Assembly (NCBI GenBank): GCA_002784945.1
Contig: PFMD01000028.1
Span: forward strand, 1 to 38,395
DNA from: Candidatus Kerfeldbacteria bacterium CG_4_10_14_0_8_um_filter_42_10
GTDB lineage: Bacteria; Patescibacteriota; Patescibacteriia; UM-FILTER-42-10
Length of the DNA stretch: 38,395 nucleotides
Reading direction: 5' to 3'
Shown here: in pieces, positions 13,297-34,538 of the stretch
Layout: each line of letters begins with the position of its first letter
Position numbering within the stretch: the stretch's first letter is position 1
Notes under the pieces: model-generated
What the model was told of the DNA's origin: nothing
Databases searched by the model: none
What the model saw: the letters and a program-made list of their open reading frames with translations, nothing else
Position numbers and translations under genes: made by a program

Positions 13297-13419
13297 ATCG
13301 CCTTTTGGGCGATAAAATATAAATTAGAGGTAGTCTTGAATATAGTGGATGGCAGACTAATCAGTCTGTTATCCCAATTAGAAACAAAGTTGCCTTTAGA
13401 AAATCACCTTTTGGGCGAT
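13297..13419. repeat. two copies of the ATCGCCTTTTGGGCGAT hairpin
   Basis: ATCGCCTTTTGGGCGAT at 13297-13313; ATCACCTTTTGGGCGAT at 13403-13419. Confidence 0.65.
13338..13388. repeat. direct repeat copy 1 flanking DUF559 segment
   Basis: gaatatagtggatggcagactaatcagtctgttatcccaattagaaacaaa. Confidence 0.9.
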
Positions 13420-13424
13420 TGAAA

Positions 13425-13808
13425 CTATTTTCCTCTTTTGATAATAGGAGAGGAAACGGACAATTGTTTTATAATTTTTTCGATAACCCCGTCAATACTT
13501 TCGTAAATATCTTTATTCGTAAATCTAATAATGTTTATTCCCAGTTTATTTATCCATTCACTTCTGACTTGGTCATGTTTTATCGCTTTAGTTTCGTAAT
13601 GCGAATCGCCGTCAATTTCTATGGCTAGTTTATATTTAGGGCAATAAAAATCCACCACGTATTTTCCAATGCTTACCTGCCGTTTAAATTTATATCCGAT
13701 TCCTCTATTCCTTAAATGTCTCCACAATATCTGTTCAGCATAAGTCATGTTACGTCTTAACTTCCTTCTTATAATTAACTCCGTCGTTTTATTGATATAA
13801 TCCGCCAT
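13425..13808 (-). CDS. DUF559 (Vsr-like) endonuclease domain protein
   Basis: 127 aa; LRRNMTYAEQILWRHLRNRGIGYKFKRQVSIGKYVVDFYCPKYKLAIEIDGDSHYE, RTxNKDIYESID. Confidence 0.92.
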   Translation of the reverse strand: MADYINKTTELIIRRKLRRNMTYAEQILWRHLRNRGIGYKFKRQVSIGKYVVDFYCPKYKLAIEIDGDSHYETKAIKHDQVRSEWINKLGINIIRFTNKDIYESIDGVIEKIIKQLSVSSPIIKRGK

Positions 13809-13825
13809 ACTTTTACCTCACCTTT

Positions 13826-13878
13826 CCTCTCCTTTTCAAGGAGAGGTACCTTATACTCCCCTCCTTGCGAAGGAGGGG
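13826..13878. repeat. paired perfect hairpins upstream of DUF559 gene
   Basis: CCTCTCCTT-ttc-AAGGAGAGG (13826-13846) and CCCCTCCTT-gcg-AAGGAGGGG (13858-13878). Confidence 0.85.
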
Positions 13879-14053
13879 CTGGGGGCGGTAGATTAAACAC
13901 AAAAGCTCCCTTTTCGAGGAAGCCCAATGAAATAATGTTACGACGATTAAATTGTGATGTCAATTAACCAAAAATCGTTATAAAAGCTCCTTTAACAATA
14001 TCCAATTAATTGATTATTGTTAAATAAATATGAATTGGCTGTGGTATTCTTCT

Positions 14054-14103
14054 GAATATAGTGGATGGCAGACTAATCAGTCTGCCATCCCAATTAAAAC
14101 AAA
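14054..14103. repeat. direct repeat copy 2 flanking DUF559 segment
   Basis: gaatatagtggatggcagactaatcagtctgccatcccaattaaaacaaa; contains perfect 12-bp hairpin GGATGGCAGACT-aatc-AGTCTGCCATCC. Confidence 0.9.
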
Positions 14104-33408: not shown

Positions 33409-33615
33409 ATGAATCCCGTTAGAAAAAACAAATTTTGGTTTACCTATAATATCCAACGCTTAGAAAATAAACACCGGCATACCGATTGCACTGCTTATTT
33501 ACGGAAGCGCTCTACGGAAAACAATCATTATTTTTCAATTTTCAGCAAAGGTCGAGAACTATTTTTTATTTATTTTGAAGCGTGTTTAAAGCGCTTCTTT
33601 TTTCTAACGGGATGA
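33409..33615 (+). pseudogene. degenerate, truncated GIY-YIG endonuclease-like ORF bounded by inverted repeats
   Basis: 68 aa; FWFTYNIQRLENKHRHTDCTAYLRKRSTENN...IYFEACLKRFFFLTG resembles the GIY-YIG layout (YxYILQSxxNxxFYTGCTxxLRKR...LIYYEACL) with the catalytic YIG replaced. Confidence 0.55.
33413..33613. repeat. perfect 16-bp inverted repeats (arms 33413-33428 and 33598-33613)
   Basis: ATCCCGTTAGAAAAAA / TTTTTTCTAACGGGAT. Confidence 0.95.
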
Positions 33616-34538
33616 ACATCCAGGAAATTAAATCCAAGGATATGAGTTGGGTTAACATTATTAACCCCACTCAAGAAGAGATTGAACATCTCCGAAAAAC
33701 TTATAAATTCCACCCGCTGGATTTAGAAGATTGTTTAACGGTAACCCAGCGACCTAAGATTGATGAATACGAGAAGTATCATTTTATGGTGCTTCTTTTT
33801 CCGATTTACCACACGAAAACCCGTGAAATTACTCCCGAAGAAATCCATTTTTTTATCAGCAAGCACTACCTGATTACTATTCATAACAATGTGCTTTCGC
33901 CCGTCACCAATTTTTTTCACCTCTGCCAAAGCAGCCAAGAGGTACGAAAAAAGCATTTCGATGGCTCCGCCGAAAAACTACTGTATCACGTTTTAGATAA
34001 ACTGCTTACCTCTATTTACCCGATGCTGGATCATCTTAGCGTTGACATCAGCCAGGTGGAAAAAGGGATTTTTGCCGGTGACGAAAAAAAGATGGTTAAA
34101 GAAATTCTGGTAACCCGCCGGAATATCACCGACTTTCGCAAAATTATGCAGGCTCACAAAAAGACTTTGCAAAAGTTAACGGCCGGCCTGCAGGAAAGCG
34201 ACTTATTTCAAATCCAAAAAACTGACCGCTATTTCGACAACTTAGTGGATCACACTAAGGAGATTTGGGATGCCCTCGAAGGATACAAAGAAGCCATCGA
34301 AGCATTGCAGGAAACCAATGAATCGCTGATTTCTAATCGCATTAATGAAATAATGAAAACATTAACGGCTATTTCCGTGGCTATTCTGCCAGTAACATTG
34401 ATTGCCAGCCTGTTTGGCATGAACACTCCCAATTCTCCCTTTAGCAATCAGCCTCATGCCTTTTGGATAATAACCGCCATGAACTTATTGATAATGGCCG
34501 GCTTGATATTTTTCCTTAAAAAGAAAAGATGGATTTAA
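33612..34538 (+). CDS. corA: CorA family magnesium/divalent cation transporter
   Basis: ORF track 33582..34538; in-frame ATG at 33612 (MNIQEIKSKD); two C-terminal TM helices, ASLFGMNTPNSPF signature. Confidence 0.9.
   Translation: MNIQEIKSKDMSWVNIINPTQEEIEHLRKTYKFHPLDLEDCLTVTQRPKIDEYEKYHFMVLLFPIYHTKTREITPEEIHFFISKHYLITIHNNVLSPVTNFFHLCQSSQEVRKKHFDGSAEKLLYHVLDKLLTSIYPMLDHLSVDISQVEKGIFAGDEKKMVKEILVTRRNITDFRKIMQAHKKTLQKLTAGLQESDLFQIQKTDRYFDNLVDHTKEIWDALEGYKEAIEALQETNESLISNRINEIMKTLTAISVAILPVTLIASLFGMNTPNSPFSNQPHAFWIITAMNLLIMAGLIFFLKKKRWI

Follow-up and report, generated by a model that had tools for sequence, protein, structure and literature searches.

Introduction

Descriptions of the repeats known as BoxC, PIT or intrastrand-triplex repeats date from the 1990s, and hundreds of genomes contain them; we know of no factor behind their spread. 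Among domains of unknown function, DUF559, called YcjD in Escherichia coli, is very common. It shares its fold and its acidic and histidine positions with the EDxHD-type homing and mismatch nucleases I-Bth0305I and Vsr, but it is a standalone gene bounded by repeats, without intron or intein. To our knowledge it has no mismatch role, in contrast to Vsr.

In E. coli the repeat is now named TM_ECO, formerly BoxC and PIT. MG1655 has 23 copies, some as inverted pairs, and CD and NMR show that the sequence forms a triplex in vitro (Holder et al. 2015, PMC4666352). The same study found TM_ECO flanks more rearranged than controls and, by DMS footprinting, detected no protection of a triplex in vivo; its authors write that they had never come across genetic-mobility activities near these sites. 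Both this study and Hoyne 2000, as cited in PMC4666352, found no mobility gene associated with the repeat and proposed structure-induced instability. PMC4666352 mentions neither DUF559, ycjD nor a nuclease, and a non-exhaustive literature search found no paper linking DUF559 or ycjD with triplex repeats.

REPIN/RAYT systems (REPtrons; TnpA-REP with REP/BIME) are the other close comparison. Their low-copy nuclease gene is flanked by its palindromes, inverted palindrome pairs are dispersed in intergenic DNA, nuclease and palindrome form cognate pairs, and paralogues each have their own palindromes (PMC3116915, PMC8266576). DUF559 and its repeats are alike in each respect. The nucleases differ, HUH Y1 in REPIN/RAYT and PD-(D/E)XK/Vsr-like in DUF559, as do the palindromes, which carry a GTAG tetranucleotide in the one and, in the other, a G-rich mirror tail that could serve as a third strand.

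Here we analyze a window, the whole 38,395-nucleotide stretch of a Candidatus Kerfeldbacteria contig. The initial annotation had proposed REP/RAYT-like logic with a Vsr-like nuclease at a DUF559 gene set among palindromes. The core of that idea is strongly supported, since palindromes of one class flank DUF559 in many phyla and are dispersed mainly in DUF559-positive genomes, but the direct repeats bracketing the gene and an ATCGCC hairpin do not belong to the conserved system. Going beyond that annotation, we describe a mirror tail rich in G and the arrangement of units in inverted pairs, and we identify the units as BoxC/PIT/triplex repeats. Compared with earlier studies of BoxC/PIT/TM, we link the same repeat to a nuclease and add candidate phyla to its range.

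The DUF559 locus

The features of the locus are listed below in window positions; C49 is a contig of the window's genome (G000).

13337–13383, no strand: copy 1 of a 47-nt direct repeat, a separate dispersed palindrome class
13425–13808, minus strand: DUF559 gene, 127 aa, predicted Vsr-like PD-(D/E)XK / EDxHD-type nuclease (PF04480, E=1e-32)
13765–13975, no strand: 211-bp segment holding the first 44 nt of DUF559, the inverted pair and a RAYT-type REP; 96% identical copy at C49:3664-3871
13814–13846, minus strand: triplex-type unit 1, hairpin CCTCTCCTT-GAA-AAGGAGAGG, linker AAA, mirror tail GGTGAGGTA
13847–13857, no strand: inverted-pair spacer, resembling the ACCTTATACT spacer of the genome's dispersed pairs
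13858–13890, plus strand: triplex-type unit 2, in the opposite orientation to unit 1, CCCCTCCTT-GCG-AAGGAGGGG, linker CTG, tail GGGGGCGGT
13905–13923, no strand: RAYT-type REP palindrome GCTCCCTTTTCGAGGAAGC, a second, separate system; same sequence beside the RAYT gene on C49
14053–14099, no strand: copy 2 of the 47-nt direct repeat, with a perfect 12-bp stem (14063–14074/14079–14090)

The Pfam match bears out the initial reading of the minus-strand frame as DUF559. An AF2/AlphaFold model of the window protein (mean pLDDT 86) matches 3HRL (E=2.5e-7), the I-Bth0305I catalytic domain 3R3P (E=1.9e-4) and Vsr 1VSR (E=8e-3) in Foldseek. The family's conserved pattern is RQ..IG.Y..DF.C...L.IE.DG..H ... 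D..R, with invariant alignment columns E, D, E..DG..H, D, R and Q. The window's DUF559 has both the fold and the catalytic-type residues of the Vsr-like PD-(D/E)XK (EDxHD) nucleases, and is predicted to nick or cleave DNA. 3HRL is the Neisseria gonorrhoeae DUF559 protein, and a triplex-type unit follows its gene; at this locus (L283, NGO0050-type) the gene adjoins CTCTCTCCC-TGT-GGGAGAGAG triplex-type units. Phage DUF559 amounts to three weak records.

Both perfect 9-bp hairpins annotated next to the gene are present, at 13826–13846 and 13858–13878, and these two CCYYCYY hairpins are the part of the locus kept beside DUF559 elsewhere. They belong to an inverted pair spanning 13814–13890. The window's DUF559 gene has units on its 5′ side only. 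Just 5 nt separate the tail of unit 1 from the DUF559 ATG, and this tail can also serve as a Shine-Dalgarno sequence. The window's own genome has about 25 units, mostly tail-outward inverted pairs about 77 bp long with a 13-nt spacer resembling AACCTTATACTT. Across the material, dozens of unrelated intergenic sites carry unit pairs without DUF559 gene fragments. An Rfam scan of the window found one tRNA and nothing else.

In the second copy of the 211-bp segment the DUF559 gene is truncated. A REP-associated tyrosine transposase (C49:4924-5532, L260; NF047646 above cut-off) with REP GCTTCCTCGAAAAGGGAGC lies 1 kb from this copy, and its REP recurs in the window at 13905–13923. Since the copied segment includes the REP and a RAYT is nearby, two palindrome–nuclease systems are nested here. 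The window protein (PF04480) is not an HUH/Y1 transposase (PF01797), the true RAYT being a different gene, and neither GTAG nor CGTC marks the units, with no GTAG recurring at the unit foot. Inverted palindrome pairs flanking the gene and genome-wide dispersal are both found. Because the Y1 nuclease and GTAG are absent, we do not file the DUF559 system as a REPtron.

Structure of the repeat unit

From the flanks of DUF559 loci, a unit reads as pyrimidine arm, loop, purine arm, about 3 nt and a G-rich tail, for example CCCCTCCTT-TTC-AAGGAGGGG-TTA-GGGGTGGTT. The tail is the purine arm written backwards, with A replaced by T or kept as A. We scored this relation on 69 units picked without regard to the tail. 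The match between tail and reversed purine arm (A to T) reached z=10 over swapped arms and z=16 over letter-shuffled arms. In the same 69 units the direct-repeat (z=2.7) and reverse-complement (z=1.1) relations gave no comparable score. Arm A corresponds to tail T or A in 188 of 210 positions, and arm G to tail G in 351 of 425.

In sequence terms, this is how a third strand of the purine motif, running antiparallel, is encoded (G.G-C, T.A-T, A.A-T). The order of pyrimidine arm, loop, purine arm, linker and third strand with G.G-C and T/A.A-T triplets is that of BoxC/PIT/TM, for which inverted pairs and the TTA linker have already been described (PMC4666352). The window's units and the DUF559-linked units are thus BoxC/PIT/'intrastrand triplex' repeats, and a triplex is predicted for those of the window.

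The modal linker is 3 nt. Several units have long linkers that fold into hairpins of their own, and because such a linker is itself a hairpin, the tail would stay in place; it is as if linker insertions were tolerated only where the tail stays near the stem. Linkers of this kind occur at L073, L099, L105, L107, L108, L109 and L111 and at C4:17028 in the window's genome. On the 3′ side of a gene the unit is inverted, so that tails point at the DUF559 gene; units are also arranged as tail-outward inverted pairs.

Association with DUF559 across phyla

The initial annotation had suggested comparing palindromes within 200 bp of DUF559 with those near other genes. We ran this comparison over many phyla. 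Bacterial genomes were scanned by protein alone with alignment A2 (alignment A1 was too divergent), and 80 DUF559 loci from more than 20 phyla were taken. Hairpins were defined by a pure pyrimidine arm of at least 8 nt and a loop of 3–8 nt.

The association between DUF559 and triplex repeats is very strong. Pyrimidine-arm hairpins lie within 200 bp of 57 of the 80 DUF559 loci (71%), against 17 of 623 control ORFs on the same contigs (2.7%; OR 88, p=1.9e-49), and on both sides of 27/80 loci against 2/623 controls. Narrowing the controls to ORFs below 200 aa gave 2.2%. Beside DUF559 there are about 0.5 hairpins per 100 bp, against 0.005 far away, a roughly 100-fold excess over distant background. 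A further set from multi-copy genomes had hairpins at 18 of 25 DUF559 loci; paralogues within one genome are 35–62% identical and have different hairpins. In other families of the window's class, polypyrimidine/polypurine hairpins nearly always accompany DUF559, and often a single hairpin sequence stands on either side of the gene. No such hairpins were found at DUF559 domains within large proteins (L036-L041).

Co-occurrence across genomes and arm classes

We searched 286 genomes of the window's class (237 genera) for units with a covariance model; counts near 24 are to be read as at least 24. Of 104 genomes with a good DUF559 match, 87 had units (84%), as did 41 of 182 without one (23%; p=1.5e-24); at least 5 units were present in 59/104 and 16/182, respectively. 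RAYT genes do not account for the association. Among DUF559-positive genomes, Y1_Tnp (PF01797) adds nothing (44/76 versus 15/28, OR 1.2, p=0.82), and among Y1-negative genomes the DUF559 effect holds (15/28 versus 7/98, OR 15, p=2.7e-7).

The covariance model finds no unit in 17 of the 104 DUF559-positive genomes, and 14 genomes without DUF559 carry at least 5 units. Six of the latter, at least 98% complete (G026, G031, G139, G150, G215 and G232), have 10 to at least 24 units and no DUF559. Their units could be orphan repeats or could have a different nuclease as driver. At 30 inspected loci with orphan units in genomes lacking DUF559, no DUF559 was found beside the units.

Arm sequence follows the DUF559 tree across phyla beyond chance. 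On a tree of 80 DUF559 proteins, built from 104 columns and poorly resolved in places, arm class takes 28 changes against 42.2 when shuffled, with 0 of 200 shuffles as low; host phylum takes 39. One supported clade with common CCCCCTT arms joins Thermodesulfobacteriota, Nitrospirota, Planctomycetota and Chloroflexota. On these sequence comparisons, cognate pairing of nuclease and repeat is well supported.

Repeat units in E. coli

The E. coli DUF559 gene, ycjD, lies between sapF and fabI, with a unit 3′ of it. It is present at this one locus in 3366 of 5426 genomes. The unit, GGGGAGAGGGTTAGGGTGAGGGG, is the TM_ECO motif, identical to the string printed in PMC4666352, and occurs in 5118 of the 5426 genomes at 1–7 intergenic places; units persist in many strains without ycjD. 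Three records of the plasmid collection (NZ_OL790696.1, NZ_CP141089.1 and NZ_CP119142.1) are whole chromosomes filed as plasmids.

Units are dispersed, and their presence at a site is polymorphic. Between pstB and pstA, one strain group has a 92-bp unit-containing insert and another is uninterrupted. Copies of AACCGTGT flank the insert and one more lies inside it, and the difference could be either gain or precise loss of the 92 bp. Where a classical insertion sequence or MITE would show a target-site duplication and a precise empty site, there is this one clean empty site with its three AACCGTGT copies and a second, less clean polymorphic site between 3-hydroxybenzoate 6-monooxygenase and dusC. 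Absence of ycjD was considered as an empty site and rejected: an efflux operon occupies the place in strains without ycjD, so the site is not a clean one.

Interpretation

We favor the view, at a probability of roughly 0.6, that standalone DUF559 and BoxC/PIT/intrastrand-triplex repeats form a two-part selfish or domesticated system resembling REPIN/RAYT, and DUF559 probably cuts the folded unit and drives its spread. On an exposed strand, such as the lagging-strand template, the unit would fold into a hairpin whose groove would take up the G-rich tail as a third strand. The DUF559 protein, which resembles Vsr and homing endonucleases, would recognize its cognate folded unit and nick at or near it. 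Units, single or as REPIN-like inverted pairs, would then be copied to new intergenic sites via repair or replication, while the DUF559 gene, like a RAYT, would keep to one or a few copies, each accompanied by its own units. With the tail of the upstream unit at the position of a ribosome-binding site in about half of cases, expression could be self-limiting.

DUF559 may instead belong to the host and resolve triplex hairpins as a nuclease of repair or genome maintenance, retained close to the repeats and in the genomes that have them because they require processing, with something else spreading them. Vsr and Holliday-junction-type folds are repair nucleases, ycjD is low-copy and vertically stable in E. 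coli, and triplex repeats are tied to instability (PMC4666352). We consider this reading unlikely, as it leaves unexplained both the repeats bounding the gene on two sides and the arm class that follows the nuclease tree across phyla. It is less likely still that the repeats are a cis-regulatory part of the gene (a ribosome-binding site, attenuator or autoregulation operator), dispersed solely as a side effect of gene transfer and decay. In 24 of 50 cases no more than 20 nt separate the end of the tail from the start codon, and C49 holds a 5′ fragment with a truncated DUF559, but units also occur inverted 3′ of the gene, the dozens of unrelated intergenic pairs lack gene fragments, and E. coli PIT elements are cited in PMC4666352 as having no promoter or terminator activity.

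The two other explanations seem to us very improbable. RAYT/IS200-like Y1 transposases or other elements could mobilize the units, with DUF559 as a passenger; one of the unit pairs, on C49, does have a RAYT with its own REP nearby, and this REP also stands beside the window's pair. That REP differs from the units in sequence and structure, however, and unit number is independent of Y1_Tnp given DUF559, a stratification on which we rejected the RAYT as driver. DUF559 could also be a defense or restriction nuclease located by chance in variable intergenic regions rich in repeats, in line with its weak similarity to PADLOC models such as mREase_II and Hhe. Against such a coincidence, control ORFs on the same contigs lack the repeats, and the arm-class correlation would be left unexplained.

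Returning to the two-part system, DUF559 is the best candidate so far for the factor spreading the long-known 'orphan' triplex repeats, and the link gives each partner a testable role, in E. coli K-12 (ycjD) and with the solved homologue 3HRL. If it is true, logic of the REPIN kind has evolved more than once from nucleases unrelated to each other, and there is a reason for purine-motif triplex sequences in bacterial genomes. More tentatively, and at somewhat less than even odds, DUF559 could be a structure-specific nuclease acting on intrastrand DNA triplex that drives BoxC/PIT spread in most bacterial phyla. It would then be an independent REPtron-like system of Vsr/homing-endonuclease fold and the first mobile system on triple-helix DNA.

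Other palindromes at the locus

The near-identical repeats annotated as bracketing the DUF559 gene are real, with 94% identity over 47 nt (13337–13383 and 14053–14099) and, in copy 2, the 12-bp perfect stem as described. None of 2000 shuffles of the same composition contained an exact 20-nt direct repeat within 1 kb. Their proposed role as bounds of the segment did not hold up, and we rejected them as cassette ends. Their palindrome, GGATGGCAGACTAATCAGTCTGCCATCC, occurs at seven places in the genome, and since five of these are away from DUF559, it does not define the ends of a cassette; it was found in only 3 of 57 relatives. The 47-nt repeat is therefore unlikely to be the end of a DUF559 element. 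Synteny of the locus, which lies between abhydrolase and zincin genes, is lost in the relatives G001, G002 and G025, so no empty site can be demonstrated at the window.

The ATCGCCTTTTGGGCGAT hairpin, said to occur twice at the edge of the segment, is exact at 13297–13313, but its second copy has one mismatch (ATCACC...), and this ATCGCC hairpin falls outside the conserved DUF559-linked set. Farther along, a degraded GIY-YIG-like frame at 33412–33616, which has no Pfam match, had been assigned to the same class of cassette. Its inverted repeat of about 16 nt (ATCCCGTTAGAAAAAA / TTTTTTCTAACGGGAT) is real but of a different, non-triplex type.

At C53:595-627 in the window's genome, one hairpin of a unit pair is interrupted by an inserted GC-rich palindrome, a hint that unit folds are targets of other palindromic elements. 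The GG..GGNAGACTNATNAGTCTNCC..CC palindrome of the 47-nt repeats is confined to the window's family and G025. G002 has a copy 3′ of its DUF559 gene (C52:22750-22777), and another copy, on contig C2 of G025, lies inside a Y1_Tnp match.
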